Below, one piece after another: positions 2,866 through 64,000 of a DNA stretch of 64,000 bases; position 1 is the first letter of the stretch; each line of letters opens with the position of its first letter. Origin of the DNA: Tetrahymena thermophila SB210 (taxonomy: Eukaryota; Ciliophora; Oligohymenophorea; Hymenostomatida; Tetrahymenidae); contig NW_002475926.1 of the NCBI RefSeq assembly GCF_000189635.1, positions 451,886 through 515,885 on the forward strand, given 5' to 3'. The translations under genes and the position numbers were made by a program. A model generated the notes under the pieces. The model made no database searches and was not told where the DNA came from. It saw nothing but the letters and a program-made list of their open reading frames with translations.

Positions 2866-3179
2866 TTTTTCATTGTAAATAATAATAAATTGAAATAGCT
2901 TCTATATATTTCAAATACAATAATAATTAATAAATTTCCTAATCAATCATTGTTAAATTTCTAACTTTTGATGACATAAATTAATTATCATTTTTTTTAA
3001 AGTAAAAAAGCAATTCAACTGAATTTTGAAGGCTTTTGACAGCACTAAAAAGAGATAATTTTAGTTTAAAGATATTATGTTTTAAATATTATAATGAAAA
3101 AAAATATTTATTTTTTATATAAATTTATATATTTATTTTTTAAACAATTTTAAAATAGATTTATTAATCTTATTTTTCA
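2866..3179. other. AT-rich spacer
   Basis: Intergenic between convergent genes; nothing recognised. Confidence 0.5.
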
Positions 3180-4304
3180 TCAAACCTTTTCTTCTCTCAA
3201 ATATTTAGAAAAATTTTCAGATTTTTAAGCCAACAATTAAGGGTTCAAATTTTCAACTCTTTCAGCAAAAAAGGTGTTTTGAGTATTTGCATCATAAGCA
3301 AAATAGTAGGAAGTCAAAATTTAATTACCAATAATAAAAGCTCTCTCGCCATCAATAACTTTGAACATCAATCTATAAATTCCATCTACAATTTTTTTAG
3401 TATAAACAGAAGGAACTAAAGATAGAATATAAGGACTCATATCTTCAGTTAGTATAGTAATCTTAATAGGTTCTAAACCTTCAATGGTATCTATATAATA
3501 CTCCTTGAAAATTCCGATACCGCTAACTGTTATTTAATAACCTCTTTCTTTTAAAATTGCAAGCATTTACTCAAAAACATTCAAATCTATTGAAGATAAA
3601 GCAGAATCAAAATTAATGTAGTATTTTTTATAGCCACTAATTTTTTAACCAAAGTAAGTTGTTTCTCCATTTGAGTAAAATGTACAATCATAAACGTAAG
3701 TATCAGATTTATCTACATACATTTTCACGAAACTACTACCTTTTTTGATAAACTCTGGATTTGGCTCACCAAGATTTATTTGTCCAATAATATCATCCGA
3801 AGTAAAATATGAAAGATATTTATTGAAAAAAGTTATATACACTCTAGGTTAAGAAATCAATCCTTCTTGATTAAGTTGCTTCAATAGTGACAATTATTTA
3901 GTATCATCATTAACTTTACCAAAACATAAGCTTCTAGTGTACAAAGTTAAGTTTAAGTTATCAAGTGTATTGTATTGAGCAAAAACAACTCTGGCTTAGA
4001 AGTTACCCATTTAAAATTAAGCCTCATAGTCATTTACTCCATAAGTAGTTGTTCCACTAGGAACTGCACCACAAGTTTAAATCTTGCGATAATCTGTTCT
4101 GATAAAGTCAATTTCATTGGAACAATAATAGAATTCAGCTTTTGCTTCTATTTTGCAGTTTTCAGTTCCAAAATTAGCATTAAATAAAATGGAGTTCTCT
4201 TCACGGTCAAACTTTAATGGAATTTCAAGCAAAGCATGAGTAGTTAAAATAAAGCTTGCAGAAATTATAAGCAAACTAAAGGTATTTTTTTTAGTAATCG
4301 TCAT
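3180..4304 (-). CDS. Secreted pepsin-like fold protein, catalytic motifs degenerate (copy 1)
   Basis: Single exon, 374 aa, ATG at 4304, TGA at 3180. Residues 1-25 form a signal peptide (basic start, hydrophobic LLIISASFILT). The middle matches the pepsin family pattern LLKQLNQEGLISQPRVYITF followed by IGQINLGEPNPEF (pepsin: nQGLi..p.FS..L...g.l.lGg.D). Near the C-terminus FIIGNQILTSYYFAYD matches the ILGd.FLr.YY..fD strand. The second active-site loop, expected D-[ST]-G, reads FDSALSS, and the first is not recognisable. So it is probably a non-catalytic member, or has been mis-assigned. A tandem paralogue lies at 7211-8326 and the flanking DNA upstream is also similar. Expected location is the secretory pathway or outside the cell. 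The fold call rests on motifs only. Confidence 0.6.
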
Positions 4305-7210
4305 CCCTTTTTAGTTTAATTAACTTTTATCTAATAATGTTTAATCATATAAAAAATATTTACTCAATTTAGACTTTGTTCTGTCAAATTTGATAAATTT
4401 ATATTTCTGGTAGATTAGAAAATTTTTTATTATGGATCAACTAACTAATCAGGAAAATTATAAAGGACAGTCACTTTTTTCTAGCCATAAAATCTGATTA
4501 ATTTTTTTAGAATTATTTTTTGTATAAATCAATTAAAAAATATGAAGTAAAATAATAAAAAATTTATGATTCTCAATCAAGTAAACCATAAAAAATATCA
4601 GATTCTTAAATAATTTTAAACTTTCTAACAAACAAGAACTATATTTATTTTAAGTATAGACTTTGAACTATATTTTAAGTTTAGAGTTTTTATTTATAAC
4701 TAGAAATCATCCATTTTTGAATAAAATTTGTTTTTTTTCTTTCAAACTTTTATAGAAAAAAGTAAATTAAATAAAAAAATTTCATTAATATAGAAAAGAA
4801 ATATGTTTATAGTAAAATATAACAATATTTTAACATATTCAGATTAATGCTTCTTTGAACTTTCTTTTATAAGAGTTAATCAGAAATTTAATAATATTAC
4901 ACATACAACAAATTAAATAAAGCATGCAAAGCAATAGTTTATGAAAATAAAATTAATCTTAAATTTGAAAAGATAAAAGAATATAGATCAATAAACTATT
5001 AAATATTTAAATCCTATTACTCATTCTTAATTACTCAATTCCATAATTAAATAAGTAGTAAATTGAAATACTTTACAATTAAATGGTTTCCAAATTTAAC
5101 AAATTTCTTTTTTAATATTACAAAAGCTAAAAATTAAAAAGTAAAAATTAACTTAAATTGTAGTATAAAATACAGGTCAAAAATAAATAACATTTTCAAA
5201 GTGAACTAAACTCTATTTAATATATTAATTAAGATAATTTTTTTATATGAAGTACTAATTTATTTAAAAATAATAAAAATAAGAAAATTTATTGATAAAT
5301 AATATTTATTAAAAAAATGATCTAATATTTTAGTCTTTAAAAAAAATTTTCACAAGTATCTTGCTTATAAAGTATTATTTTAAATAGAAATTCAAAATAA
5401 TCGATAATTTTTTATAAAAAAGAAAAAACTGAGAACATTTTCCTCTAAATTTAGCCTTAAACTTAGTAAAAATTGATAAATGAAATAAATCAAATCTTTA
5501 ATTTATTTTAGATAAATTTTAAGTAAAAGATTTCTCCTTAAATCACTTTTAAAATCTATGTAGGAAGGAAGTAATTAATTAAATTATAATTATTTGAAGG
5601 TTATATTTATATAAAAATATCAAAATTAATTTCATAAAAATGAACTATAAATAAATATTTATTTTTATTCAAAAATTTATTTAATCTTTATTTTCAGTCT
5701 TAATTTAATATCATTAAATTTTTTAATAAATAAGTTAACTTTTTGAAATACGTAATAAAGTTAAAAATAATTTTGATAGTAAATAAAAACTAATTGCTAT
5801 CAATCCTCATATTTAAGACTAAGTTGTATTAAAGTATAAAAATTTTTTTTGGAAACTTGTTCATGCATTAATAAGGTGTTCTTTTATATAGACTGATAAT
5901 CTTATCTATTAATTATGTTAAATAAAAAAAATATATTTAAAAATATATAAAATACTGCTGGAACTCTTAAAAGTATAGTCTAATTTATTTAATAAGTAAT
6001 ATTTTTGCAAAATTAGTAAAATAATAAGAGAAAATTTTTTGAGTAATTTAAATAATCGTTAGTAAAATTTTTTTTTAATTAAAATGCATAAAAGATATTT
6101 TTATTTTGAAAAGTAGAGGAAGATGGTACACTAATTTATTAGGATTGATAGCATTTTATATTTATTTATAATTAATTCAACCATAATTTAAATTTTAAAT
6201 TTCATTATGAAGATAAAATTTTATTTTACTATTTATTAAATAAATTATTTAATTTTTTTAAATAATCTGAATAAAAAATATTTTAAATTTTTTCTAATTA
6301 GGGAATTTAAATTTTAATTTAAAAAATTCAAATGTAAAATTGATTATTAATGTTAAAAAAATCTTTCTTGAATATTTAATACTTTGAAATAGAGAAATTA
6401 AAATTGTTTTTTAACTTAAATATATTCTAAAAGAAAAAATTTATTCTGATCAATATTTAAAAATACAAAAATTAAGAGACTAATTATGCTTTAAACTAAT
6501 TAGTTAATATATTAAATAAACTTTAAGATGAATATTTTAACTTTACTAATTTCATTTTTTGAAATCTTAATAAAATATAAGTTTTACAATTACACTAATA
6601 TTATTTATTAAAATAAGTACCTAAAATGATGAAGATAGTGGTAATTTTTAAGAATAAATAAAAAAATTTAAATAATTAATAACCTAAAAATTGAATTAAT
6701 TTAAAAATATAGATTTAAAAAAAGGAAAAAATTTTAGAGAATTTGTTAGAAATTTAGTTTCAAATAAATTATTAAATTTATTATGTTATTTTCTTAATTA
6801 GCTTTTTTAAAATGAAAGTGAGAAAATAATTTTTTGAATTTTTGTAAAAATAAAATTCATCTAAAAGTCAAAACTTATAATTCATAAATAAACCAAAAAT
6901 TATGATATTTTATTTGTTTTTCTAAAATATTAGTGAATCTTTTGTTTATATCAAAAAATTTTTTAATTTTATTAAGAAATTGTAATTTTTGTTAATTAAA
7001 AAATTTATTTATTTTATTTAAAAATTATTGTTTAGAAATTACTTTTGCAAATTGTGATTTTCTAATTAAAATTGAGAAGGAGAAAAAAAGTTGATTATAA
7101 TTTTTAAATTTTAATTTTTAATATACTTTTAAAAACATAAAATATTTTTAATTTATAATTATATATGTTTGTTTCATTACAATTTTAAATAACTTCTAAT
7201 ACTTTTTATA
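4305..7210. other. 2.9-kb AT-rich intergenic region
   Basis: Mostly A/T runs with frequent TGA in all frames. The first about 130 nt (to about 4430) resemble the DNA upstream of the paralogue at 8327-8450, for example a shared GATTAGAAAATTTTTTAT, so they probably hold the promoter and 5' leader. I see no further gene. Confidence 0.5.
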
Positions 7211-8326
7211 TCAAAGTTTTACACTTCTCAAATAATTAGAGAAATTTTCAGCTTTTTCTGCAACCTATTAAGGATTTAAATCAACAGCTCTTTCTGCAAA
7301 GAAGGTATTTTGAGTAACTGCATCATAACCAAAGTAATATTTAGTCAAAATTGTATTACCCAATACAAAAGAACCAACTTCAGGTTCTAATAGTAATTTG
7401 TAAACTCCTTTTGCTATCTTTCTGGTGTAAACAGAAGCATCTAGGGTTAGAGTAAATGGGCTCTTATCTTCAGTGAGTAAAGAAATTGTAATAGGTTCTA
7501 ATCCTTCAATAGTATTTATATAGTATTGATCATGAATATCAAATTGGTTTATTGTAATTTTATAACCTCTTTCTTTTAAAATATTCAACATATATTCTAA
7601 AGTATCCTTATCTATTGAGGTCATTTCTGTATCAAAGTAGATGGTATATCTTTTAAAAGTAGGTATTTTTTAACCGAAGAATGTTGATTCGCCATTTGAG
7701 TAAAACTAGCATTCTAACTAATAAGTATCAGTGTTATTAACAAACATTTTTACAAATTTAGAACCTGGTTTGATAAATACAGGGTTTGGTTCACCAAGAT
7801 TTATTTGTCCAATAATATCGTCTTTAGTAAAATAGGAAAGGTATTTATTGAAAAAAGTGATGTAGACTCTTGGTTAGGAAATCAATCCTTCTTTATTAAG
7901 TTGCTTCAATAAAGACAATTATTGTTTATCATTAGTAACTTTACCAAAGCACAAGCTTTTAGTAAAATATATTACATCTGGGTAATTGACATCATTGTAT
8001 TAAGCAAAAACGAGATCAGCTTCGAAGTTACCCATTTTAAAATTGGCCTCATAGTTACTTAACCCTGAAATTTTAGTTCCAGTATTTACTGCACCACATG
8101 TATAAAGAGAACGTTCACCAGTCATTACAAAGTCTACGTCATTATTGCAGTTGATGAATTCAGCTTTTGCCTCTATCTTGCAGTTTTCAGTTCCATAAGT
8201 AGCATTAAGCCAAATTTAGTTTTTTAAAACGTCAAACCCTACTGGGATTTAAAGCGAAGCTTAAGCACTCAAAAGCAAGCTTGCAGAAATTAAGAATAAA
8301 GCAAAGGTATTCTTAGAAATGCTCAT
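7211..8326 (-). CDS. Secreted pepsin-like fold protein, catalytic motifs degenerate (copy 2)
   Basis: Single exon, 371 aa, ATG at 8326, TGA at 7211. It is a clear tandem paralogue of the gene at 3180-4304, with long identical runs such as GTENCKIEAKAEF and LISQPRVYITFFNKYLSYFT. Signal peptide at residues 1-24 (LFLISASLLLSAQA). Pepsin-like pieces are the QLNKEGLISQPRVYI helix-strand, IGQINLGEPNPVF, and SFVLGNTILTKYYFGYD near the C-terminus. The position of the second catalytic Asp reads YFDTEMTS, so D-T is present but the glycine of D-T-G is not. The first D-T-G is absent. I infer loss of protease activity in both copies and retention of the fold, perhaps as a binding or surface protein. Both genes use TAA/TAG for glutamine freely. 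Confidence 0.6.
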
Positions 8327-10419
8327 TTTTTTTATCTTTATTTTATAATTTATTTTTTTATAAATTATTTGTTCGTTTAAGTCCTTTATCCATCGTGTAA
8401 ATTTAGACAAATTAAAATTTCTAATTGATTAGAAAATTTTTTATGATAAATAAAAATCATGAAATTATCAAAAAAATTGATATTATTTTTCCGGTCATGA
8501 GATATAAGAAGGATTTATTTTATTAATTAAAGTGATAAACAAATAATTATTTGGTTTTTGTTAATTGAAAAATACTAATTAAAATAATAAAATTACTAAT
8601 TCTCAATTATATTTTAAGTATTCTATCTTAATGATATATATTTATTTATTTTTATACTTTCTCTTTTAAAAAAAATTATTTTAGACATTTGTTTCAAATT
8701 GATATATTTGCTTTTAAAAAAAATTGCATACATATTTAATACACCAATTTATGAAAAAAAAAAGATGATTTTAATTTTTTTTAAAATCATTATGCTAAAA
8801 AGCAACTTATATAGAAATTTCGTAAAATATAGAAAAGAATTCGTATTTGAACAAAATATAAAAGAATCTATCTATATAGATTTAGCTTAAAGTGTCTATT
8901 TAGCTATTATAAACAATATTTATCAGAAATTTAATAAAATTCTTTAAACTGTAAATAAATCAAACACTTATTTTAAATATTACACTAAAAATATAAAATA
9001 TTTTGTTTTCATTTCCATTAATTTATCTATTAATGTTGTTTTTATATTTATTTATTTATTCTAGTTGACTTTAAGAGCATATTTTCAAATTATTTTTCCA
9101 TTTTTCTTTTATTACTTTTTAAATAATTAAATATTTTTTAAGAGATAAAAAAAGCCTTTTATCAAAAAGAAATTAAAAAATAAAAGAATTAATATCAATT
9201 TCTGAAAAAATAGATGCTCTAACTAAAGAAAGATTTATTAAACATAAGCATTAATACGAAAAATGAACATATAATTAATTAATTTTAAACTTATTTCTAA
9301 AGAAAATTAAAATCAAATTATTTTTTGTTTACTTTCCATAAACAGCAACATATTTTCTAAAAATTATCAGCTCAATTCTTAAAATTATTTTATTGTTTTA
9401 ATAAATTACTAAAAAAATTGAGTGGAAGTAAGATTGTTTAAATGCTAAGTTCCTTAAGTTAAAAATTAATAAATAATTAATAAAAATTTGCTAAAAATAA
9501 ATTTATCATTTTAAAATATAGATATAAAAGTAAATTTAAAAACTGTTTATTTTTGAAAAAAAAATATTCATTCTCAAAAACCAATTTCTAAAGAGAGTTT
9601 ATATATGAAACATTAACTTATTTAATTTAGTTGTTTAATTTTAGACTTTCTAAATTTTAAAAAGTTTTATTCTTAAAATAAATTAAAAAAAGAAAGAAAA
9701 AAAAATTGCTTATAAAAATAAATTAAAAAACATACTTAAATTTATTAAAGATATTTTAGAAGCATTTAAATATTGCTTAATATAAAATAAAAGATAGAAT
9801 AATTTTAATAAATATCTAATTTTAATCTATTACTTAACATAATTTTCAATTGAATTTTAGTAGTCTGAGGAACTAAAATAACTTTATTAAATAAATTAAT
9901 TATTTAACCTCAACTATTTATCTTAAAAATTATTTTATTCAAAGAATATTTAAAATTATGAAATAAATATCTTTACTTTTTAGTTAATATTAATCGATGA
10001 TTAATCTTTCTTTTATTTATTTAGTTAATGAAGCAGTTTTTAATTCTTATTATAGAATAATTTAAATTTTAAGTAAAAAAATTAAAATCAAATAAAATCA
10101 AATTTTAAAATAAAAATAGAAAAAAATAGAAGAAGTAGACAATTCTAATTTCAAAAGGACTTTATTTATTTTTTAAATTTATTTTAGGAATTTATACAAA
10201 AGAAAATTAATACAATTCTTAAAATTTATAGATTAAGAGTAATTGCTACTGAAATTCAATTAATCTATCAGATAATATTAAACCTATCACTTCATATATA
10301 CTACTTACTATTTATTTAATTATTTTATTAACTCTTCCTTAAATAGGAAAGAAAAATAAATACGTATTTTATTCAATAAGAAATTTTTTGAAAACAGCAC
10401 ATTTTATTTGTAAAATAAA
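8327..10419. other. 2.1-kb AT-rich intergenic region
   Basis: Between divergent genes. An ORF from 8699 stays open for about 170 codons in the ciliate code, but it is low-complexity Ile/Phe/Lys/Asn sequence and I regard it as chance in AT-rich DNA with one stop codon. Nothing else recognised. Confidence 0.5.
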
Positions 10420-11589
10420 ATGGAAATTGAACAATTAGAAGAAGAAAAAACACAATAAAACTTAAGTGATTCTCAAATTTAATCTTAGAAAAATGATAAT
10501 ACCCAAGTTAGTATAATTAAAAAAAGAAAAAGAACAAAAGCTTTCAAATTTTGTAAATTCTACTATTAGCCACAGGATATTGATGATGAACCAGTTTATA
10601 TATTTTTTTTAAATAAAATTTACAAGAATTATGAATAAGAATAATACAATTAATATAGAAACTATGGATTTACTGATGCCGGCATTGCGAAAATAGAATA
10701 TGTCTAGTTAGACAAAATCTTTTAAACTATTGATTTAAAGTTTGATTTTGTTTCTTTAGGTGTAGATAACTTTAGAAAACTTATATAAATTTTTAGAAAG
10801 AAAGCAGATAGAGATTATTTTGAGCTTTCAAATGCTCTTAAAGAGTACTAATTATGGATAAACTAAATTTTTAAAACTGCAGCAGAGTTATTCTCTGATA
10901 AGTAAATATACAATTAAAGCCATCAAGAAGAAGTTGATTAAGCCTTCCCAGATTTTGAAAGGATAGTAAAAGAATGGGCTAAGGAATAACTTCCTAATGA
11001 ATTATATGAGATAGAGCTATGCTCGATTAAATATGATATGGTTAGGCCAATTCTAAAAAAAAAGATATATTCAAAAAACTTAATTTTATTTTTAGGGAGT
11101 GATCTTGAAGATATTTATTAAAAACTTATTGATTTTAACTTAAAGAGTTACATCCATAGTCTATTAAATGGAGGTGAAAATAATGGCAAATTATAATTGT
11201 AAAAGGCTATAAAAATAATAAAATGGATGACTCAATACTAAAAGGAGGAGCTCTTCTTTGACGACGAAATTACCACTTTAGATGGCTTGTCTATCCCAAC
11301 ATAGAAATCATTAGCTTACTATTCTTACAACTATAAATCAAAAACTATTTCTTAAAAACGTGATTAGCATTTCTTTTATGTTACTAAATATAATTTTGAG
11401 CCTCACTGGATTAATTACCTAATTTAGATGAGATAAAAACTATAATAAATGCCAAAGCAAATAGGATGCAACTAAGTTTATTAAATCTAAGGACAAACAT
11501 TGAATTAAGTAGATAAAAACTTTGAGTTTATTTGTCAGCAAGAATATTTTTTAGAGAAATTTAACTATATATAAAAAAGTTTAAATTGA
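10420..11589 (+). CDS. Tandem-array family protein, member A1 (unknown function)
   Basis: Single exon, 389 aa, ATG at 10420, TGA at 11587. First of six paralogues. Layout: acidic/Gln N-terminus (MEIEQLEEEK), a basic patch KKRKRTK at residues 34-40 that resembles a nuclear localisation signal, then EPVYIFFLNKIYKNYEQ, YRNYGFTDAGIAKIE, an aromatic-rich helix region, PNELYEIELC, KKKIYSKNLILFLGSDLEDI, LNGGENNGKLQLQ, TLDGLSIPTQK, and the C-terminal signature FICQQEYFLEKFNYI. Members A2 and A3 are nearest by eye (shared NELYEIELC and Y/F-x-x-FEP/S-x-WI). I do not recognise the family; there is no signal peptide or membrane segment, and no catalytic motif I can name. The stop at 11587 is 359 nt before the AlbA-like gene on the same strand. 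Confidence 0.85.
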
Positions 11590-11948
11590 CTTTTTTGTCA
11601 ATATCCTAATTATAATTTAAAAAACTGTTTAATTTTATAGCTATGTTAGTGAAATATTAATTATTTTTCTTCAAAAATTATTTTTTATATTACCAAAATT
11701 TTTATGATTAAATAAATAAAATTTATTTTGTAAAAATAACCTTTGTAAAATAAAAAATTAAAAGACCAATTTTGATGAGTAAAAATTTAAATCAAAAATA
11801 AAAAATTTTTATAAATTCAGAAATATGATTTATTTTTTTACCCTCTAAATATTTTCAAAATAATTTGCATTTATTCATGCTAAAATAACAAACAATTAAA
11901 AAAAATAATTATTTTGAATTTAGGAAAATAAACAAAAAACCTACCAAG
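11590..11948. other. AT-rich spacer
   Basis: Intergenic between two plus-strand genes; nothing recognised beyond A/T runs. Confidence 0.5.
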
Positions 11949-13283
11949 ATGTAAAACTTTTCTTTTAGTATTGATTAAATACTTGATAAATCGTTTGAAT
12001 AAGAAGTAGATTTTTATATTTTATATTATAAGATAAGTAATTATAATACAAATCAGGATTATTATCTAAGATAATTTTTACCTATTTAATTCTCTGAATA
12101 AACTAAAGAAGATGATGTAGCTTTGTAAATTATTTGCAGCATTATAAACTCAAAAGGTGGAGTCTTATATATTGGATCGAATCAATGTTTTTATGCATCA
12201 AAACAAAATATAGAAGCATAAGATTATTTAAAAGATTGCTTAAATTAAATTCTTGAAAAAATTACACCAATACCTCACGTTTATATCAATATATAATAAG
12301 TACAATAATCAGATATAGATTAATTTTAATGCAAAAAAGGTCTTAATCTTTATTTAGAATATTTAGTTAGCCTATAAATTTTTGGATAAAATTAAACTGC
12401 TTTGTACAAAATAAAAGAAGTAACTTATATTTCTCAATTAATAAAACAAGATTAATTGATAGAATGTTCTTAGAGAGAAGATCAAAAATTACCAATAATC
12501 TAGAATTTATTTCTGAATAAAGAATCAAAGATAAGTCTAAATGAAAAATTACTTAAATTAAAAGCTTATTAGTGCTTTTAAACAGAATATGTTTGCTTAC
12601 TAAATCTTTATTTAAAAAAAAAAAATCAATTTTTAAATTACTTATCTTAGTTTTTTAATCTAAATAAGATAGATTACGAATTCTAAGAAAGCTTCTAATA
12701 TTTTACCTTCATAAAATCAAACAATGCTAAAGAATTAGCCTGTCATATATATTAATTTCTTAAGACAACTTAATTAGATTCTAGTCATTTTATATATTAG
12801 AATCAGAACTTAAAATATGGAATGATGAGACTTCAATTATGTATTCAATTTAGTTCTATTCAAGATAAAATATAAATTGAAAATGTTCTTTCAAAATTTA
12901 ATTAAGCTTCACACTACGAAAATGGATATATTATTGCATTTTTTTATGACATTAAAGAGTTTATGATTTCATAAAATATGCTAAAGAAAATTAAAATTCA
13001 ATATGATTTCTATTATTAATAACCTGAAATAATTGAAGAAAAATATATTATCAGTTCTCAAAGAAATTATTAGAGTCAATACTTTCATAAAGATTGTTTA
13101 GATTTAACTAATACTATTACTAACAGCTAATCACCATAGAAATCCTTTAAAACCTAGAATTTATAAAATTAGAAGTATCAATCAAGAATTCAATATAAGC
13201 TACTATAATTTGAATTATACTGCTTTCACAACATTTTTATAGATAAACACATTAAAAAAATTAAGAATAAATTATATAAATGA
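11949..13283 (+). CDS. AlbA/Schlafen-like domain protein with duplicated C-terminal module
   Basis: Single exon, 444 aa, ATG at 11949, TGA at 13281. Residues about 54-80 (DDVALQIICSIINSKGGVLY then IGSN) match the core of the AlbA_2/Schlafen domain, where the usual pattern is a helix, N-[ST]-x-GG, a strand and IG. That fold binds or cleaves RNA or ssDNA in some families, but I cannot see the catalytic acidic residues of nucleolytic Schlafens and make no activity claim. Residues about 207-270 and 285-355 are two related alpha/beta modules (EYVCLLNLYLKKKNQFLNYL and MMRLQLCIQFSSIQDKIQIE). The same module pair is found at 3-752 and in the decayed copy at 1940-2865. The gene sits inside the six-gene array, between members A1 and B1, on the same strand. 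Confidence 0.65.
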
Positions 13284-14127
13284 ACTATTTGAGGGAGAAA
13301 GTGAATGATATGCCTAAATTTTAAAATAGAAATGAAATATAAATATGTATGATTTAAAGTACTAGAAATAGTTAAATATTTTAGTCAAAAAGATTGCATA
13401 ATAAATATACAAATTAATTCTTTTATTGATCAAAATAAGTTTAATATTATTTTTAAGTATTTATTTTAATGTTTTTTTAGATTAAGTGCATTTAGAATAT
13501 TACAATTTTAATATTAAATAAATTTCAATATCAAAATACTTAAATTTATATTTTATACATATTAAAAATTATATTGATTTAAAGATAATAATTTCATATT
13601 TTTAAAATTTGCTTTTAAACTTATCTCTATCAAATTTTGAAAAATTTTATGGCATCTAAATTATCTCTATAAAAAAGATGCTAAAGTATTAAAAATATAC
13701 TCTTGAGAGTTTGTTTGTGAAAGGATATTAATAGAATTTTGATTCATGTTTTTATTCTAAAGTTATCAATATTTATGAAATATCTACAAAACTTCAATTA
13801 TTTAGTTTTAATGAATGAAGTTTAAGATAAAAATAATAAATATCATATTAAATTGCTATATTATTTTAGTTAATAAAAGATAATTATTATAAATTGCAAA
13901 TTTAATTCTACTTTAAATAATTAATTGATATAATAGTAAATAAATTATATAGCAATAATTTACTGACGTTTGTATGTATGATTTGCAAACAACAATTATT
14001 TATAAATTGTGGAATTGAGCCATCAGAAGAAATAGAGAATATCATAATTTATTTAATCTAGCATCATTAATTTAATAAGTGCTTAAAATAAAGAAAAGGT
14101 TATTAAAAAAAGGTTTATTTTATAAAA
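13284..14127. other. AT-rich intergenic region
   Basis: About 840 nt, A/T runs; nothing recognised. Confidence 0.5.
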
Positions 14128-15300
14128 ATGAGCCAATAATTTATGGAAGAAGAAGAAATAAATGAATATTAAGAAAGCTAAGAAATCAAAGATAAACAAT
14201 CGCTTGAAATCGAATAAAGTTAGAATCAAGTGGTCTAAAAGAAAAAAAGAATAGTTAAAAAAAGAGCTAAATGGATTCCCTTTCTTATTTAAAATAATTT
14301 CAATCCAGATGAGTAGCCAATCTATCTTTTTTACTTCAGAAAATGTATGAAAAGTTACGGAAACTATGAATATAATAAATATAGAACGTTTGGATTTGAA
14401 GAAGCTGGTATAGGAAGAATAGAATAATTGAAAATTGATAAGACATTTGGAAATATAGAAATATAATTAGACACTTTTCACATGGGCGAAACATCGTTTA
14501 AGTATTTGATTGACTTATATAAGTCATATTAAGATCAATAGTATTACTAACTTGCTCTTTCTCTTGAAAAATATTAGGAATGGACATAGAATCAACAAAT
14601 TAACTTGAATAAAATGTTTAATAAACTAAGAAAGACTAAATATATGCAATCTCATGTTGAGGAGCATTTAAACAACTTTGAAAATGATGTAACATATTGG
14701 ATATCAGATTAATTCCAAAATGATATTTATGAAGCTTCGTTCGGATTTTGCAATGTTGAAAAAAAGCTCCCAGTATTAAAGAAGAAGATCTTTTCTAAAA
14801 ATTTGATAATGTTTTTAGGAGGAGATCCAAATAAAAGTTTCTATTAAATGTAAAAATAAAATATGAAAGAAAACACAAACTATCTTTTTGGCGGAGAAGA
14901 GTTTGATGGTAAAATTTAACTTGAAAAAATGATACATCTGTTAAATTAATAATTAAGTGGTGAATTAAAATGTGTTGTTAAAGACCAAGTAATAACAATA
15001 GAAGGAGTAATTTTACCGACTACTAAAACTATAACTACATACTTTTATGATGAGATTAAAAGAGAAATCACTTAAACACCTACTTTATTTTATATAATTG
15101 TGACATAATACAATTTCGAAGCAAATTGGATAAAATATCTTATGGATTTGAGAAATAATATGAATTAAGGATCTAGTTATACTTTAGATCAATCTTAAAT
15201 GAGCTCAGAAACTATTTCTCATTAATCTGATAATGTGATTAAAAATTTCGAATTTATGTGTTAGCAAGAGTATTTCCTAGAAAAATTTAATTACATCTGA
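14128..15300 (+). CDS. Tandem-array family protein, member B1 (unknown function)
   Basis: Single exon, 390 aa, ATG at 14128, TGA at 15298. N-terminus acidic (MEEEE within the first 10 residues), then a strong basic patch KKKRIVKKRAK at 38-48 followed by WIPFLIQ, which marks the B subfamily. Shared blocks: QPIYLFYFRKCMKSYGNYEY, YRTFGFEEAGIGRIEQ, LIDLYKSYQDQQYYQLALSL, KKKIFSKNLIMFLGGDP, LFGGEEFDGKIQLEK, TIEGVILPTTK, NFEANWIKYLMDLR, and the terminal signature FMCQQEYFLEKFNYI. The LYKSYQDQQYY block is specific to B1, B2 and B3 and replaces the FRKKADRDYFEL type of subfamily A. No signal peptide, membrane segment or known domain is visible. The basic patch suggests, but does not prove, a nuclear or nucleic-acid-associated role. 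Confidence 0.85.
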
Positions 15301-16087
15301 AGAGCAAGCAAGTGATTGCTACAAAATTCATTTAATCAATCTTACTCTCATTCATTCATTCATAAAATTTATGCAAACAAACAAACAAAAAAGAATAAAT
15401 TTACAAACAAAACAAACAAATAACTACTGTATCAATATTAATAATTTATATAAACATTTATCTTACTAGTTGCTTTCTTAATTTTACTATTATATCTTAC
15501 ATTTCTCAGTTAATTCTAAACATTAATTTATATTAACTCAATCAAATATTATCATGAAAGTAAAGTGTTGGTAGAGTTTATTCTGATAATTTTTTATACT
15601 ACTTATTTTTTAGTCATTTATATTTTTTTTTTTACATTATTAACATGTGTAAGCATTAAGTAAAAATAAATATTTAAATAAATAAATTGAAAAAATCTTT
15701 GTAAACATGATTTTCATAGTATAAAATTAAAAAATATTTGGTTTAAGCAAAATTTTGTTCTTTGTAAAGTGTATCTTTTATTAAAATTAATATAAAGTAA
15801 ATGGTCTTCCTTATGTGTAAGATAAAGTATAATTAAAATCTAACATGGTTTACTTTATTAAATTAAGATTTTGTAAATCTTAAAAAGAAGTGGAAAAAAC
15901 AAAACATTACTCGTCTAAAAAATGCAAGCATTTTATGGTATTTTTGTTTTCTTAGAGATAGAATTTGATATTTTTTTAAGACGGTATTTATTTGTTAATA
16001 TCAAATCTTTTTAAAATCAGGTTATTTTTATAAATTAAATAATTGTAAAATCAATTAAGCAGATTAATAAAATTGCAAATTAATAGA
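15301..16087. other. Intergenic region with simple repeats
   Basis: Contains a short tetranucleotide cluster at about 15345-15425: ATTC units followed by CAAA/AAAC units. The rest is AT-rich without a recognisable gene. Confidence 0.5.
15345..15425. repeat. Simple tetranucleotide repeats (ATTC, then CAAA)
   Basis: Three tandem ATTC units, then several runs of AAAC/CAAA separated by A-rich DNA, just 3' of member B1. Probably 3' UTR or spacer microsatellite. Confidence 0.6.
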
Positions 16088-17236
16088 ATGCGCTTAAAGT
16101 AAGAGCAATTAAACTACGATGATGAAGAGTTAGCTAGAGAAAAGGAATAAAATAAAGTAGCTATAGTTAAAGCTCCTCTTAAACCTTGCAAAAGGAGGAG
16201 AAGAAAAAACAAATAAATATAATGGGTTCCTTTTTTATTGAAAAATAATATCAACTCTGATTCAGAACCCGTTTACATTTCTTTTTTCAAAAAATTTATG
16301 AGGAAATATGATAACTAATATTATAATAAATATCGCAATTATGGGTTAATTGATGCAGGATATATTACGATAGAATAGATGACACTAGATAAAATATATG
16401 GAAATTTATTGGTTTAAATTCGCAATCATTCTTCAGGAATTATCAACTTCTAACATTTGATTGACCTATACAAATCATACTAAGATCAGTAATATTACGA
16501 GCTAGCTAATTTGCTAGACATATACTAGACCTACCATAAAAATTAGATTAAACATATTCAATACTATCTAAACCAAGAGATATCTAATAATAATATAACC
16601 TAGGAAGATATTGATGAAGTTTATAAAATATTTCAGTAAGATGCGATAGACTGGGCTTAATAAAATTATGAGAATGAAATATACGAAATGAGCTTAATAT
16701 ATATGAATTTAGAGACTAAAACACCCGTTTTAAAGTAAAAAGTATTTTCTAAAAACCTGATTATGTTTATTACTAGGGATTTTTATAATTTTTATTCTAA
16801 ACTATCATGCTAAAATATGAAAGAAAATTTGTCTTTAATATTGCATGGAGATGAGTTTGATGGAAGACTATAGCTTGAAAATAGAATTAAAATGATGAAG
16901 TAAACATTGAATGGAGAAACTTGTATTTAAGTAGAAGATGAAATAATTACTGCTGAAGGGTTAGTTATACCAACTACTAAATAAATACATCTATATTTCT
17001 ATGACTATTAAACTAGAGAGATTTCTAAAAAACACAACTATTTTTTTATTCATTTAATTAAATATAATTTTGAAGCTAATTAGATATAGCGATTAATTAA
17101 TATGAGATAACAAAATAGTTGGAATAATTTAATAAATTAAAATATTGATAAAGATAATTCTTAAGACCATATAATTACTAACTTTGATTCCATTTGCTAA
17201 TAAGAATATTTTTTAGAAAAATTTAATTATATTTGA
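16088..17236 (+). CDS. Tandem-array family protein, member B2 (unknown function)
   Basis: Single exon, 382 aa, ATG at 16088, TGA at 17234. N-terminus DDEELAREKEQ, then the densest basic patch of the array, KRRRRKNK at residues 35-42, followed by WVPFLLK. B-subfamily blocks: EPVYISFFKKFMRKYDNQYY, YRNYGLIDAGYITIEQ, LIDLYKSYQDQQYYELANLL, NEIYEMSLIYMNLE, KVFSKNLIMFITRDFYNFYS, LHGDEFDGRLQLEN, TAEGLVIPTTK and CQQEYFLEKFNYI at the end. The conserved FLGGD of most members reads FITRD here, a local divergence. The gene stops at the usual terminal NYI with no tail. It lies 787 nt after B1 on the same strand. Function unknown; no known domain recognised. Confidence 0.85.
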
Positions 17237-18886
17237 TAAATTTTATTATTTGAGTAACAAAATTTTATATTATATTTAATCCTATTATTGTTTCAATTTA
17301 ATTCATTTGCTTAATTGCTTGTGTTTTCTTATATCAAACTTTAAACAAAAATATTATTTAAACTATTATTAAATAGCAATTATTAAATAAATATATATTA
17401 AATAAATCTAAGTAAATAATTTCACATAAAATATAAAAAATAATTAATTTAAGGAATAAAAAAAGATTTTTATTAATTTAATCTTTGTAAGCTGTAAGAT
17501 TTTTAGAGAATTTGAAATTATAACAAATACCTATATTAATTTTATGATTAATGAAAATTATATTAATGTTTAATATGAATTAACATTTTAAATATTTTGC
17601 GTTTATCATTTCAAAAATATAAATTAAAATAACAAAATTCCTGATACTCAATTATTATATTTTAAGTTATTATAAATTAATTATATTTTTATACTTGTTA
17701 AAATGAGTTTAGATATTGGTTTAAGATCTAAATATTTTTTTTTTAAATTAGGTATTAAATACAAAAGTTAATAATCTTTGTATATATGATGCAAAAATTT
17801 CATGAAGACTTAAAAAATATATTGAATTTTGCAATTTATTTTTGAATAAGTTAAATTGCAAAATTCTACTTTTATATATCAAAATTTTAATGATTAAATT
17901 GTTTTTATTTAATTTATTTTCTATATTTATAAGCTTGCTAGATTTAAAATTTTTTAATTTTTTTGTTAATTAATTTATAAATGAATAAATAACTAAATTA
18001 TTCAAGTTTGCATATTAATACTTTTGTTTAAACACTTTTTCTATTTTTATGAACAAGCTTATTTTTTAAATTCTAAAAATTTTATTATTTTAGTTAATTT
18101 TTAAATTAATAAATTACTCATTTATTAAAGTTTTCTATAAAATGTGTATTGATAATAAATAAGGGCTATTTCTATTTTTATGATTTAGTTAGCTTACAAG
18201 AATTCTAAACTTTTATTATTTTAATTCATAGATAAATAAAAAAATAAATTATTAAAGTTTATTATAAAATGTAGAAGTTTTATAGATAAAAATGGTTATG
18301 CTTAATTAGTAAATAATGATTTAAAAAATAATATATTTGAAAGATTTCATTTATTTGGTTTATCTAAATTTAATTATTTATTTAAAACTTAAGTTTTTTT
18401 ATTTCTATAATAACTTTGAAGAATTTTTTCTGTTAAATTATGGTCAGAAAAAATTTTCAAATTTTAAATAAATAATAATAAATCAATCACTACAAGTTTT
18501 AAATTTAAATAAATTTAGAATAGACAAATATCATATAAAGTGAATAATATTATTTATGGAAGATTATTTAGTTAATTACATTTTTTTATTAATACATGAA
18601 TAAGATTAGCTAAGAATCATATATTTTATTTGTAAACCTAAAATTCATGCTAATTATTAATTACTCTAATTCCTCTTTGAGTAAGGCAATTTATATTAAA
18701 ACCGATTTTTAATTTATTTTTTCTATGACCACAAAATCATGTATTTCTAAGGTGATTACCTTTTTATATTATATGAGAAATTGCAGCATATTTATTTAGT
18801 CATAATATTAATAATATTATTATTAATTTATATTTTAAAAATTATAGTTAATCAAAATTTTTGAATAAATAAAAGGTTTTAAAATA
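17237..18886. other. 1.65-kb AT-rich intergenic region
   Basis: Longest spacer inside the array. It holds a degenerate three-copy repeat (about 17925-18290) and otherwise only A/T-rich DNA. No decayed family member was recognised in it, although one could have eroded beyond recognition. Confidence 0.5.
17925..18290. repeat. Degenerate tandem repeat, about 120 nt x 3
   Basis: Three imperfect copies each with CTATTTTTAT, an AGCTT or AGCTTA core, a T-rich stretch ending TTATTATTTT or similar, AATTAAT/ATAAAT, then TTATTAAAGTTT and TATAAAATGT. Copies start near 17925, 18045 and 18168. Divergence is high, so alignment is needed to confirm the unit. Confidence 0.45.
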
Positions 18887-20068
18887 ATGATCCAACATTA
18901 AATGATATAACAATAATAGAAAGAATAAAAAAAATAAAACTAAGCAAATGACTAAAAAAATATTACACAGTATCAGCAAAAAAATAGCGCTCTAACAAAA
19001 AAAAATTAAATCTAAAAAATGAAGAAGGTAAAGGTTCTTAAAATTTCAAAGCTTTACTAATAGCTTAAAGAAATTGACGATGAGCCGATATACATATATT
19101 TTTTAATAAAGATATATAAAAGTTATGAACAAGAAAGTTACTGTTAGTATCGGAATTATGGGTTTGCAGATGCTAAGATAGCAAAGATTGAGTATGTATA
19201 ACTTGATAAGATATATTAAACTATTGACATACATTTTGATTTCTTTTCTTCAGGAGTTGATAATTTTTAAAAATTAATAAAAATGTTCAAAAGAAAATAA
19301 AGTCAGATTTACTTAAATCTCTCTGTTGCCTTAAAATAATATCAAATTCATATTAACGATCTTTCAAAAATTATTGTAAATTTATTTTCAGATAAAAACG
19401 AATCTCCTGATAATATACAAGAAAGAATAGATTAAGCTTATCCAGAATTTGAACAAACTGTGAAGCAATGGGCTTGCGAAGAGCTAGCTAACGAATTGTA
19501 TGAAATCGAACTATGCGTAGCTAAAATAAATATATGTAAACCAACTCTCAAGAAAAAGATTTACTCCAAAAATTTGATGTTATTTTTAGGTGGTGACCTT
19601 GAAGAAATTTACTCAAAGCTTATTGATCTTAATTTGAAAGATGTTATTCAAAATTTTTTAAATGGAGGAGAATTTAATGGCGAGATGTAACTTGAAAAAA
19701 CAATTAAAATTTTATAATGGATGATTAGATAAAATTATAATGATTAGCTGACATTTTAAGATGAGATATTTACAATTGACGGAATTACTATCCCAACTTA
19801 AAAAACACTGAAATACTATTGTTATGATTATCAGAAAAATGAGGTGGTCTAATACCACTAATTTCATTTTTTTTATGTGACTCTATACAATTTTGAGCCA
19901 AGTTGGATAAGATATTTATTAGAGACTAGATATACTCTATAGTAAATACCCAAACAAATTTAATAAGAAGAATATTCAAGCAAAATTTAAAACTAAGTTT
20001 AGAATAACTTTGAATTTATATGTAAATAAGAGTATTTTTTAGAGAAATTCAATTATTTTAAAAAGTGA
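18887..20068 (+). CDS. Tandem-array family protein, member A2 (unknown function)
   Basis: Single exon, 393 aa from ATG at 18887, TGA at 20066. The first 40 residues are Gln-rich and mostly coded by TAA/TAG; an internal ATG at 19019 (MKKVKVLKISKL) would give a 349-aa protein starting at the conserved part, so the start is uncertain. Subfamily A blocks: EPIYIYFLIKIYKSYEQE, YRNYGFADAKIAKIEYVQLD, the acidic/aromatic helix, WACEELANELYEIELCVAK, KKKIYSKNLMLFLGGDLEEI, LNGGEFNGEMQLEK, TIDGITIPTQK, NFEPSWIRYLLETR and FICKQEYFLEKFNYF, closing with KK. Closest by eye to A1 (shared IAKIEYVQLDKI and IDFNLK-type segment). Lys residues before the conserved part are dispersed rather than in one patch. Function unknown. 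Confidence 0.8.
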
Positions 20069-20675
20069 TTTCTTCTATTCGAAAATTAAAAAATTAGAGA
20101 TTTAAAAAATAAAAAGTATAAAAATGTATTAATTGTCGTCTTTAAAAAATATATGTAAATTTTTTTTACCATTCAAAAGTAAAGTATTTTATTCTTTTAT
20201 TTAATGCATTGTGAACTTTATAAAACTCATAAATAAAGTCTCTCTTATTGTTTTTCATAAATTAATATAATTTTTAAGAGTTGAATAAATAAATTGAAAA
20301 ATAATAAATAAAATAGCTAATTTGATAATTTTTTTTATTTCTAAAATTAAATAATATTCATTTTTACACTTTATAAATTTATTTCGAAAAACAAATATTT
20401 TTTAAATTTACTTTTAAAAAATTAATTTAATTTATCAAAGATTTTTTTATCAAACTCAATAACTATTAAGTCCAAAAAAGTACTAGTAAATTATATATTG
20501 CTATTTACTTGATTCCCTTTTCACTTTTATCAGATATTGATTGGTATTTCAGATTAAAATAAACAAATTTTCTGATAAGGATATGATATAATCTATTAAT
20601 TTATGACTTTAAAGAATTACATCAATTAATTAAATAAATTAATTAATTTGTATCAAAAGAACTTTAAACAAACTA
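20069..20675. other. AT-rich spacer
   Basis: About 600 nt; nothing recognised. Confidence 0.5.
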
Positions 20676-21794
20676 ATGGAAGAAGAAAAAGAAAAAGATT
20701 CACAATAAACTATAGTAAATTATAAATAGAAAACGATTAAAAAAAAGAAAAAGAAACTATAATAAGCTGGTTGGATTCCATTAATATAGAATATATTGTT
20801 AAACTTTAGTAATGAGCCTGTATATATTCCTTTTTACAAAAAAATTATGAAGAGATATGATGATGAGAATTATAACAAATATAGAAATTATGGATTTACT
20901 GATTCTGGTTTTTGTAGTATAGATTAGATTAAATTAGACTATATCCATGAAAATTTATAAATTTCAATGAATACTCATTCCATAGGAAATAGAGATTTTT
21001 CGTTTTTAATTGAGATGTATAAATCATACCAAGATCAATAGTATTATGAGCTTGCTATACTACTTGAAAAATATTAAATAAAATGTTAGCAATAAATAAG
21101 CAAGCTAGAATAAGTAATTGATGAATTAAATTAAATGAAATATATTACTCAAGAAGAACTAAGTGAATCTTTTGATATGTTTGAAAAAGATGTAATGGAT
21201 TGGGTAAATTAAAATATTCAAAATGAAATTTATGAATTATCATTAGGGTTCATTAATTTTGAATCTAAAATTCCTGATATTAAAAAAAAAATATTCTCAA
21301 AAAATATAATTGAGTTTTTAGCAAGAGATATCTAAACTTTTTTTTCATAACTTTCTTAGAAAAACATGAAAATTGAGCTTGATAATTTGATGAATGGTTA
21401 AGAATTTAGTGGAAGAATTTAGCTTGAAAAAAAGATCAATACGTTTAAATAGATTTTGAGTGATTAGAAATACATAGAAACAGAAGATGAAGTAATAACT
21501 ATTGAAGGATTAGTGCTACCAGCTAAAAGAAAATCAAAAATGTTATTTTATAATCATAGAAATAGATAAATAACAAAAGAATAAAACTTAATGTTTTTTA
21601 TAATTAGAACGTATGACTTCGATGCATCTCAAATCTAGCGTTTAATTAACTTAAGAAACGAACTATTATCTAATTTCTTTAAGAATAATAAACATCCAAA
21701 CTTTTAAAATAGTAGCTTTTAAGGAAACATTTTCTAAAATTTTGAGTATGCATGTCAATAAGAATATTTTTTAGAAAAGTTTAAATACATATGA
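20676..21794 (+). CDS. Tandem-array family protein, member B3 (unknown function)
   Basis: Single exon, 372 aa, the shortest member, ATG at 20676, TGA at 21792. The acidic leader is only about 10 residues (MEEEKEKDSQ) before the basic patch KTIKKKKKK at 19-27 and the B-type GWIPLIQN. Shared blocks: EPVYIPFYKKIMKRYDDENY, YRNYGFTDSGFCSID, LIEMYKSYQDQQYYELAILL, NEIYELSLGFINFE, KIFSKNIIEFLARD, LMNGQEFSGRIQLEK, TIEGLVLPAKR and CQQEYFLEKFKYI. The GG of FLGGD is replaced by AR, as in B2 (TR), so this loop is not conserved within B. Function unknown; no known domain recognised. It is 607 nt after A2 and on the same strand, so each gene probably has its own promoter. Confidence 0.85.
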
Positions 21795-22630
21795 AAGAAA
21801 AATAAATCAAATTATAATGTAATTTAATATCTGGTAGCTATTTAAGTTGTTGAATAGAATTTTATTGAAAATTATTTTAAATTATACAAGTTTAAATTCA
21901 TTTTGGGGCTAAAATAATTGCCAAAAATAATAGTCAAAGAAATATTTATTTTTATAATTTTTCACCTTATCTTCTTATCTTTAAATAATTTAAACTTTAA
22001 AAGAATTATTTTTATTATTTAAAGCAAATTGTGCTCAAAAAATTATAAATTTAAAGCAAGACTATAAATCATATTTAAAGAAAATTGATTAAAATAATTA
22101 TTTAGGAAATTATTTTAGTCTTTAATTACATGTAAATGATTTATAGTTTTTCAGTTAATAATTTATCATATTTAATACGCATTTTAAACTAAAATAGAAA
22201 AAAAGACTTTTTTTAACTGTAAAGATTATTTTTTTTAATGCTTCTATTTAATTCTAATATTGAAATTAAATTTGTTATTTTTCTACTACATTAATTAATT
22301 AAAATAGATGAAAGACTGAATGGATATTAATTAAAAATCACTAGTAAATAGAATTTGTAATTAAATGCGAGCTATTTTTTACTTAAAAAAAATGAAAGCT
22401 TTACACTTTAATATTAAATTGCTTCCAAATTTTTTATTTTATTTATTGAACAACTTATATAAAAATAAAAACTATTTCTGAGAATATTAAGAAAAATCAT
22501 TACCAGTAGAATTGTTTATTTTAAGGTATTCATAGAATTAATTGATTTTTTTGTTATTAAGTAAAGAAAGGAATTTTAGATTACATAAACATTTTTTTAT
22601 AATAAAAAAAAATAAATCTGAAAAAAAAAA
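21795..22630. other. AT-rich spacer
   Basis: About 840 nt. A run of A residues directly precedes the ATG of member A3. Nothing else recognised. Confidence 0.5.
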
Positions 22631-23815
22631 ATGGAAATAGAAGAAGAAGAAAAAATTTAAAAAAATGAAACTTAAATTGCTATAAAAAGATAAAAATATC
22701 CTAAATCCGAAAGCGATAAAATAGTAAAGGCAAATATGAATAGATATAAAAAGAAAAAGTAAGTTTAAGTTTTGGTGCATCCAAATATACCTTGCAGTGT
22801 GATGAATTTGAACCAAGAACCAATTTATATTTATTTTTTATTTAAAATCTTTAAGAGTTATGATAATGAAGATTATAATAAGCATAGATACTTTGGATAC
22901 GCAGATGCAGGAGTAGGAAGAATAGATTAGATTTATTTAGATAAGGTAAATGAAACCATTGATTTAAATTTACAAATCTACTCTCAAGGATACGAGGATT
23001 ATAAGTATCTAATATAGATTTTTAAAAATAAATAAGATATCTTGTATTATAATTTGGCTAATTTATTAGAATAATATTAGCAGTGGACTAACTAGCATTT
23101 ATCCTATATTTTAAATGCCTTTTCTGATAAAAATATTTTTAATTAATCATTCTAAGAAAAAATTGATTAGGCATAACCAGAGTTTGAGTCAGTAGTTAAA
23201 AAATGGGCTTAAGAAAAATTTCCTAATGAATTATTTGAAATAGAGTTAGGCACTGTCAATATAAACCAAGCAAAACCTATTCTTTTAAAAAAAATATTTT
23301 CCTAAGGCTTAATGATGCTTTTAGGAGGTGAAGTTTATGATATATATTAAAAGCTAATTGAATATAATTTAAAAGAGAGCTTAAGTAGCTTTTTGAATGG
23401 TGGAGAATATAATGGGAGATTGCAGTTAGAAAAAATAATAATTTTAATAAAAAGCTTCATGTAAAATAACTATACCCATGTTGTTTTTGAAGATGAAATA
23501 TTTACTTTAGATGGTATTTCAATACCAACTAAGAAAACTATTAAAACATATTATTACGATGAAGAGCAAAAATAAATAAATTAGAAGCCTAATATGTATT
23601 TTATTATCATAACATTCTATAATTTTGAATCTAATTGGATAAAGTATTTGATAGAAATAAGATAGTAATTCTCTTAGTTAAGAAAAGAAATTGAGTATCC
23701 TGGAATAAAAGAAGCATCTCAGAAATAATTTTATAAAAATTTTGAATACATTTGCAAATAAGAATACTTTTTAGAAAAATTTGATTACACAAACAAATTC
23801 TAAGACAGCTAATGA
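22631..23815 (+). CDS. Tandem-array family protein, member A3 (unknown function)
   Basis: Single exon, 394 aa, the longest member, ATG at 22631 directly after a poly-A run, TGA at 23813. Leader MEIEEEEKIQ, Lys patch RYKKKKQ at 38-44. Subfamily A blocks: EPIYIYFLFKIFKSYDNEDY, HRYFGYADAGVGRIDQIYLD, WAQEKFPNELFEIELG, KKIFSQGLMMLLGGEVYDI, LNGGEYNGRLQLEK, TLDGISIPTKK, NFESNWIKYLIEIR and FICKQEYFLEKFDYT followed by an eight-residue tail. The start MEIE.EEE and the PNEL[YF]EIEL block tie it to A1. Last of the array: the next gene is conserved, on the opposite strand and split by an intron. Function unknown. Confidence 0.85.
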
Positions 23816-53080: not shown

Positions 53081-54330
53081 TCAGACGAAAATCATCAACA
53101 TAAAGAACAAAGTTAGATAAGAGTATTAGATTAATAAAGATGAAACGTTAGGGTCGTTTTAAGCGCTTGCTGAGAGAGTGAATTTCCAAGAGTTTTAAGA
53201 TGTATGCTATTTCCAAGTAAAATCTTTAAAGATAGCAAATGCTAAATTCTAAGATGTCTCTGCTTATATAATTTAATCACAATTGGGTTCGTTAGTGTTT
53301 AATGGTCTACTAAATTTAATATTCCAATTTCCTGTGGATGAGTCATAAGTAGATGTTGGATCTACAGTTAAGTTATTAACACATCCTTTGTTTACATCTA
53401 AATCTACCACATTTTAGCTATCAATATTAGTTCTATCTTCACCAACTACTTATGTTCCATCCCATTTAAATGCAGCGACATCTATACCGTCCATTCCTCT
53501 ACCTCCAAATCCAAGAGCTACATATCCTTTGTTGGACCCAGTAAGGGTGAAAGAAATTTTAGGAGAAGTAATTGAGTAATTCAGAACAAAACCATTTGAT
53601 AATGATATTTTATTTGTAACTTGAGCTAATGTACAAGCTGCTAATAAGGAAAATAAAATTATTAATTTCATTTTTTATTTCGAATTTTTTATTTTTTTCA
53701 AACAAAAAAAGTTTATAAATAATATAAAAAGTTAGTTAGTTATTTAAAGAATAATATTCGTTCTGGAAAATCTCTACTGTCTAACTTTTCTTTCCAGTAA
53801 ATAATTGAAGCAAATTTTTTCATTTTCTTTCAATTTTCTATCAAGATATAATTACAATTGAAGAACTTAAATCTGGATAAAAAACAAACAAAATCTTATT
53901 AAATTTTACATGTTTATTAGATTGAATATTTAATCAGTAATTGAAAAGCCCTTATATTTTTATTTTCAACTAATGTTTAATACAAATTCTTAAATTTTAC
54001 ATTTTATAGATCAGAAAAATTTCTAAAATTTTGAAGAAAAATATCCTTCAAATATTTTGTTTTTCTTCTTTCAAAAATGTTGGAAGGAAGTAAACAGATT
54101 TTTAGATAAATTACTAATTATTCAATTATTTTGATCAATTATTCTATAAAATTCTATATCAATTTTCTCAAATTATTAATTCATAAAAGTTTAAATATTT
54201 ATAAATTTAATTATTTTTATTATTTTAATATATCCCTCAAGTTAAATATTTATTTCATAATATTTTTAACTTATTTTTATTACATTTTAAATTTTAAGTT
54301 TAATTATAAAAATTTATAGAATGTATTAGA
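52640..54330. repeat. Tandem duplication unit, copy 1 (contains DOMON gene)
   Basis: Similarity to the block at about 54470-56040 extends beyond the gene on both sides: left flank AATTTATTCAGTAATAAA and AAATTCATAAAAATCACT; right flank TTTAAAGAATAA, TCTCTACTGTCTAA, and TTAACTTATTTTTATTACAT near the end. Edges are approximate. Confidence 0.7.
53081..53671 (-). CDS. Secreted DOMON-domain protein (copy 1)
   Basis: Single exon, 196 aa, ATG at 53671, TGA at 53081. Signal peptide at residues 1-16 (MKLIILFSLLAACTLA). The body is one DOMON-type beta sandwich: SLSNGFVLNYSI, then GSNKGYVALGFGG, MDGIDVAAFKWDG, VVGEDRTNIDSQN, NWNIKFSRPLNT, and NLAFAIFKDFTW. DOMON domains bind haem or sugars in other proteins; ligand residues cannot be judged here. 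The last about 16 residues are hydrophobic (YSYLTLFFMLMIFV) and directly precede the stop, which suggests a GPI-attachment signal rather than a true transmembrane tail. Two cysteines (GCVNN and PNCDQ) could form a disulphide. It is a tandem twin of the gene at 54820-55410, with the same length. Confidence 0.85.
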
Positions 54331-54819: not shown

Positions 54820-56040
54820 TCAGACAAAAATCATCAAAATAAATAACAAAGCTAGATAGGAGTATTAGATTAATAATGATGAAAGATTAGGATCCTATTA
54901 AGAACTTGCTGAGAGAGTGAATTTCCAATAGCTTTAAGATGTATGCTATTACCAAGTAAAGTCTTTAAAGAGAGCAAAAGCTAAATTTTAAGCTGTCTCT
55001 GCTTATATAATTTAATCACAATTTGGTTCGTTTGTGTTTAATGGTCTACTAAATTTAATATTCCAATTTCCTGTTGATGAATCATAAGTAGATGTTGGAT
55101 CTACAGTTAAGTTATTAATACATCCTTTGTTTACATCTAAATCTACTACATTTTTTCCATCGAGATTAGTTCTATCTTCACCAACTACTTAAGTTCCATC
55201 CCATTTAAATGCAGCAACATCTATATAGCCCATTCCGCTACCACCAAATCCAAGAGCTACATATCCTTTGTTGGACCCAGTAAGGGTAAAAGAAATTTTA
55301 GGAGAAGCAATTTAGTAACTCAGAACAAAGCCATTTGATAATGATATTTTATTAGTAACTTGAGCTAATACACTAGCTGCTAATAACAAAGATAAAAATA
55401 TTAATTTCATTTTTATTTTTACAGTTTATTTTTTACTTTTTAAAGAAAAATAATTTATAAATAATAAAAAGTTGGTTATTTAAAGAATAACATTTGCTCT
55501 GGAAATTCTCTACTGTCTAAATTTTTTAAGTAAACTTACTAATAAGCTTAAATTTTAAAATTTATTTTCATTTTCTTTCAATCTTCCATCAAGATATAAT
55601 CAGAATAGAAGAAATCTGGATAAAATCAAACAAAATATCAAGAAATTTTATTCATTGAATTTTCCATCAATAATCTAATACATTTACTTATTAATTTATT
55701 TTCAAAGTAATGTTAAAAATAAATACGCAAATCTTACATTTAAATATCAGAGAATTTTCTAAACTTTTTAAGAAAAATATATTTAAGATATTATCTCTCA
55801 AAAATTCTGGAAGTAAATTAAATTCTTATAAATTACTAATTCTACAATTATTCTATTGAAGTCCATTTAAATTTTCTTAATTATTAATTCAAAAAATAAT
55901 TTTATAACACCTATATTATTTTATTTATAACTTTAACATAACCCTCAAAATATTTATTTCATGATATTCTTAACTTATTTTTATTACATTCTAATTTTTA
56001 AATTTAATAAAAAAATGTAAAGAGATGTAAATAGTATTAG
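54470..56040. repeat. Tandem duplication unit, copy 2 (contains DOMON gene)
   Basis: Second copy of the unit at about 52640-54330, same orientation, slightly shorter through small deletions in the spacers. Edges are approximate. Confidence 0.7.
54820..55410 (-). CDS. Secreted DOMON-domain protein (copy 2)
   Basis: Single exon, 196 aa, ATG at 55410, TGA at 54820. Same length and architecture as copy 1: signal peptide MKLIFLSLLLAASVLA, DOMON body with GSNKGYVALGFGG, VVGEDRTNLDGKN, NWNIKFSRPLNTNEPN, and a hydrophobic tail YSYLALLFILMIFV suited to GPI anchoring. About nine in ten residues agree by eye. Most substitutions are conservative and no stop or frameshift is present in either copy, so both appear functional. 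Differences cluster in the tail, the signal peptide, and one loop (RGMDGID against SGMGYID). The ligand is unknown. Confidence 0.85.
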
Positions 56041-63975: not shown

Positions 63976-64000
63976 GGGGTTGGGGTTGGGGTTGGGGTTG
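63976..64000 (+). repeat. Telomere, GGGGTT repeats
   Basis: Four perfect GGGGTT units plus one G at the right end, G-rich strand running 5' to 3' towards the end as expected for a right chromosome terminus. One extra G (63975) precedes them, so the healing site is within AAG/GGGG. The G4T2 unit is that of Tetrahymena and relatives. The array is short because the sequence stops here. Confidence 0.97.

Follow-up and report, generated by a model that had tools for sequence, protein, structure and literature searches.

The 64,000 nucleotides of Tetrahymena thermophila SB210 analysed in this study (contig NW_002475926.1, positions 451,886 to 515,885, here referred to as the window), which form the right end of contig C442 in a genome of 101 Mb, carry a tandem array of six genes that is real, old and maintained, and that constitutes one branch of a large and unnamed ciliate family. 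Structural models suggest that the core of this family probably adopts a PAS fold. As a tentative proposal, the six genes would encode soluble, probably nuclear, sensor-type regulators with this fold, as members of a large paralogous ciliate family.

The array and its family

The six array genes are intact and intron-free plus-strand frames of 372-394 codons that are all open from ATG to TGA under genetic code 6, which confirms the description in an earlier note made from the DNA letters. Each contains 18-28 TAA and 6-10 TAG as in-frame reassigned codons (28-34 for both together), and an inner TGA is absent in all six. The N-termini are defined by a chosen ATG, with further in-frame ATGs located upstream in A1, A2, B1 and B2. 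The G+C content of the genes amounts to 22-25% compared to 14-19% in the A/T-richer spacers, in a window that varies between 18 and 28% per 2 kb.

Table 1. Location of the array genes, of an interspersed gene and of the PAS-like regions (window coordinates)
Feature	Position	Strand	Description
A1	10420-11589	+	subfamily A, 389 aa
B1	14128-15300	+	subfamily B, 390 aa
B2	16088-17236	+	subfamily B, 382 aa
A2	18902-20068	+	subfamily A, 388 aa
B3	20676-21794	+	subfamily B, 372 aa
A3	22631-23815	+	subfamily A, 394 aa
AlbA_2-like neighbour	11949-13283	+	outside the family; weak Schlafen AlbA_2 similarity (Pfam PF04326)
PAS-like region of A1 (predicted)	10999-11397	+	about residues 194-326; AlphaFold model, fold searches
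PAS-like region of A3 (predicted)	23234-23623	+	AlphaFold model of trimmed A3, VIA-align

An alignment of the six proteins contains 56 invariant columns, including those of the C-terminal signature QEYFLEKF, which all six proteins share. The block KK(I/V)(Y/F)S, described as a common feature, is altered to KQKVFS in B2. A1 shares 58% of its residues with A2, 45% with A3 and 32-35% with the B genes. In a tree of 38 members, the three A genes form one group (support 100/99) and the three B genes another (95/87), and the array of the window is united with a second array on contig C173 (100/100). Together with the order A1, AlbA_2-like gene, B1, B2, A2, B3, A3, these groups bear out the division into two interleaved subfamilies. 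The central KSYQDQQYYELA block was previously regarded as exclusive to B, a distinction that does not hold since the array on C173 contains close versions in its C and D genes. For the same reason it may be the A genes, and not the B genes, that are altered at this block.

The family had been presented as a local array of six genes. With B3 and one gene each from contigs C204, C138, C221, C78 and C403 as queries, six protein searches within the same genome have instead revealed at least 64 places on 34 contigs (E-value up to 1e-3, with matches less than 400 bases apart merged), 42 of which sit on 12 contigs carrying two or more. This count is a lower bound as only the best candidates were scored, although some of the weak local matches may be false. 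Five of originally 69 places were dropped for exceeding the threshold, and a family profile identifies one of these, on C174 at 272 kb, as a full-length member. The sequence was read for 42 of the 64 places, whereas the remaining 22 are defined by the search results. At the loci that were read, most frames match a 13-member profile across nearly its entire length, and those that span the profile from position 32 or earlier to position 380 or later, 37 of the 42 read places and the member on C174, make up the set of 38 that underlies the tree and the conservation described below. Outside this set are the split first gene of C173, a split gene on C91 at 1558 kb, C138 at 486 kb, C418 and C78 at 112 kb. 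What looks like a local oddity is thus revealed as part of a superfamily when genome searches proceed outward from divergent members.

The array on C173 illustrates how such clusters may grow. Its four genes are ordered C1, D1, C2, D2, and the segment from C1 to D1 matches that from C2 to D2 in seven blocks of 74-91% identity over about 7 kb. Since these blocks include the spacer, the gene pair was copied as a whole. C1 itself (locus L020, around 2933-4186) is divided between two frames and may either be a broken gene or reflect a sequence error. In the window, the order of A and B genes in combination with their supported groups requires more than the copying of a single gene, which sustains the earlier claim that the array did not grow by simple head-to-tail duplication. 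Block copying by analogy to C173 would account for the interleaving, although a self-comparison of the window has shown no direct trace of it, with four self-matches that are all confined to genes.

The copies in the window are old, since the proportion of synonymous differences (pS) in its four measured pairs, at 0.68-0.78, is near or at saturation. The ratio of nonsynonymous to synonymous substitution rates (dN/dS) is between 0.14 and 0.36 in the nine of 11 pairs with measurable synonymous distance (dS), with rough values in the four of these where dS exceeds 1.5, whereas saturation of synonymous changes precludes a ratio for A1/A2 and C308/C78. Genes located neither in the window nor on C173 entered this calculation as stop-to-stop frames, and some of their upstream bases are possibly non-coding. 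The repeated duplication had been interpreted as selection for diversity. When compared over whole genes rather than at single sites, it is purifying and not diversifying selection that is found, with ratios of the same order as the median Ka/Ks of 0.25 and 0.30 stated in PMC6564038 for genes that occur in one or two species of Tetrahymena.

These properties bear on two further explanations. Many divergent tandem copies would be expected in a fast-changing family for the recognition of food, mating partners or self and non-self, in which duplication supplies diversity, and PMC6564038 describes species-specific Tetrahymena genes as often arranged in tandem and weakly expressed in axenic culture. 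In light of the low dN/dS and the age of the window pairs we consider such a role quite unlikely, as the proteins also contain no strongly hydrophobic stretch suggestive of a signal peptide or membrane span, although no dedicated predictor was run. The presence of repeated copies at many places would equally be compatible with the remains of a virus or mobile element. This origin appears highly improbable, since most of the copies that were read have kept an intact frame and are under purifying selection, and since a Pfam scan of 23 members has identified neither a transposase nor any other enzyme of mobile elements (no search was made for terminal repeats). Similarly, one family pattern applied to viral contigs has yielded 71 stretches, none of which is a relative.

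A core with a predicted PAS fold

On the level of sequence, the family is as unrecognised as initially supposed. Searches of Pfam have revealed only scattered matches below cut-off and no family matched by two different members. In the PDB, a six-row profile has found a single chance match (E-value 0.88) and a 13-row profile none. The openly licensed titles and abstract beginnings listed in a literature search contain no description of such a family, and the term PAS does not occur in the main text of PMC6564038.

The inability to name a domain does not extend to predicted structures. AlphaFold models of A1 and of a trimmed version of A3, both of moderate confidence, show a PAS topology, with elements following in the order beta-beta-helices-beta-beta-beta that is characteristic of the PAS arrangement. 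In each of three structure searches, the 50 matches listed are all PAS, LOV or PAS-containing entries. The models thus suggest with considerable likelihood that the core of the family has a PAS fold. Several observations weigh against this assignment. All structural matches have Z-scores below 8, where the tool warns of a mere common arrangement, and no match in Foldseek reaches an E-value of 0.001. Both models were built on the same six sequences and are therefore not independent. Pfam PAS models match none of the 23 members covered by two scans of 13 and 10, and a search of the genome with PAS_9 has identified seven other places but none of the family. In an hhalign comparison of the 38-row family to 80 bacterial LOV domains, the probability was 0.0 and the score did not stand out from those of 20 shuffled controls. 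The motif G-x-N-C-R-F, which contains the photoactive cysteine of LOV photoreceptors, is absent from all 38 members. Without a match to LOV profiles, the PAS assignment consequently derives solely from structure prediction. The resemblance could be an artefact of a common alpha/beta arrangement in a core with another fold. We regard this as unlikely, since the order of elements is common to the two models, which differ in their lead sequence although the same six sequences underlie both, and since the entries listed by the three structure searches belong to a single fold class.

Conserved helices and a possible sensor function

In the predicted architecture, a variable acidic and Gln-rich leader at the N-terminus would be followed by a Lys/Arg-rich stretch, a beta-hairpin, helices, the PAS-type alpha/beta core, an exit helix and a C-terminal helix. 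Conservation within this framework, defined as the mean share of the top residue per region in the 38 full-length members, is highest in the C-terminal stretch with the FLEKF/Y helix (0.48, with F377 found in all 38), followed by the pre-core helices (0.39) and by the exit helix behind the core (0.37, with its terminal R338 in 37 of 38). It decreases to 0.35 in the first two PAS strands and to 0.30 each in the PAS helices and the last strands, and it is lowest in the linker ahead of the C-terminal helix (0.11). A variable core between conserved helices would fit a sensor whose input differs in each copy while the output partner is common to all, and it would fit a scaffold too.

In case of a sensor, the Lys/Arg-rich stretch may confer nuclear entry or contact to nucleic acids and thereby position the protein on its target. 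The helices preceding the core carry a conserved face, FxxLI...YxxLxxxLxxYQ, as likely surface for a dimer or partner. The PAS core would bind a small ligand or protein partner, as in other PAS proteins, and the ensuing change could be relayed via the flanking helices, of which the exit helix closes with its almost invariant Arg, to a common partner that reads the FLEKF(Y) signature on the C-terminal helix. Duplication would then generate parallel regulators with different inputs or targets. The basic patch, on which the earlier note had based a nuclear or nucleic acid-related role, is only partly confirmed. In 36 of 38 members its Lys/Arg density is higher than that of the core, but it exceeds shuffles of its own composition (p<0.05) in only 11 of 38, which counts against the role assigned here, and it is absent from the members on C204 and from C78 at 195 kb.

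Alternatively, the proteins may be PAS-fold scaffolds that sense no ligand, in which core and helices hold a chromatin, RNA or cytoskeletal complex and the copies differ in their partner. The stronger conservation of the C-terminal signature and the pre-core helices compared to the PAS helices, which would form the ligand site, would favour such scaffolds. Since a poorly conserved pocket is equally expected if every copy senses something different, we view this as possible yet somewhat doubtful. Our preferred proposal remains that of sensor-type regulators, and in its widest form, which we advance as a mere possibility, it would describe a class of nuclear sensor-regulators of the PAS type that has so far escaped recognition, comprises 60 or more members, ranks among this ciliate's larger families of regulators and is invisible to sequence libraries. 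Similarly speculative is the general design of its members, in which a PAS core might be combined with a basic stretch, a helical face for partners and a docking helix at the C-terminus that is almost invariant. To our knowledge, few classical regulator families explain the responses of ciliates to food, starvation, oxygen and mating partners. Provided that its members are regulators of the PAS type, a family that occupies at least 64 places in one genome would be open to direct testing.

Variation is also found at the ends of the proteins. The deep members L053, L056, L049, L052, L054 and L028 carry a C-terminal tail of the type CGYRxL, AGYRxI or CKYRxI that the window genes do not have. As a DNA pattern, the CGYRxL-type tail has yielded 18 matches in the genome compared to 11 in a reversed control, and thus no clear excess. 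Two longer members, L027 and L059, contain acidic or Asn/Gln-rich regions flanking the core that resemble activation regions.

Neighbouring genes and related systems

The AlbA_2-like gene located between A1 and B1 is linked to the family by position alone. Its similarity to PF04326 (E-value 4.5e-4, 21.2 bits) is below the cut-off of 25.3, and the only other match found in the genome, on the plus strand at 1999-2814 of the window, shows 33% identity to its residues 163-434 only. Two other local pairs are found on the minus strand. The first consists of duplicated 418-codon frames (3183-4436 and 7214-8467) with 61% identity across 374 positions, a stretch of hydrophobic residues behind the likely Met and no Pfam match at an E-value of 0.001, and the second of two frames with DOMON domains (53084-53965 and 54823-55599). 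The contig end beyond the array is a telomere, with GGGGTT repeats at 63975-64000, about 40 kb from the array, which we take to be macronuclear telomeric repeats of the Tetrahymena type.

Among known systems, the array family resembles PAS and LOV domains, such as those of LOV photoreceptors, of the channels hERG, ELK and EAG and PAS-B of NCoA1, in the predicted order of strands and helices. In contrast to these, it displays neither a sequence signal nor the LOV cysteine motif, and it contains its own flanking helices and C-terminal signature. PAS domains are also part of transcription regulators, including bHLH-PAS proteins and fungal Zn2Cys6 proteins with a C-terminal PAS domain such as the RDS2/ERT1 group. 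A similar mode of working, with a basic region ahead of a PAS core, is conceivable for the array family by analogy. Of the properties expected of transcription regulators in general, its members display a basic stretch only. Unlike these regulators, the family has shown no Pfam match to a bHLH domain at E-values up to 1 (up to 5 in one scan of 13 members), and the pattern of the Zn2Cys6 binuclear cluster is found in none of the 38 members. A genome search with PAS_13, presumably a suitable stand-in for the RDS2/ERT1 group, has not identified any place. Finally, the family shares its tandem duplication with lineage-specific families of Tetrahymena, such as the leucine-rich repeat genes described in PMC6564038. 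It differs from the latter in its single-exon genes without 90-bp exon repeats and in the old and divergent copies that make up the array in the window.
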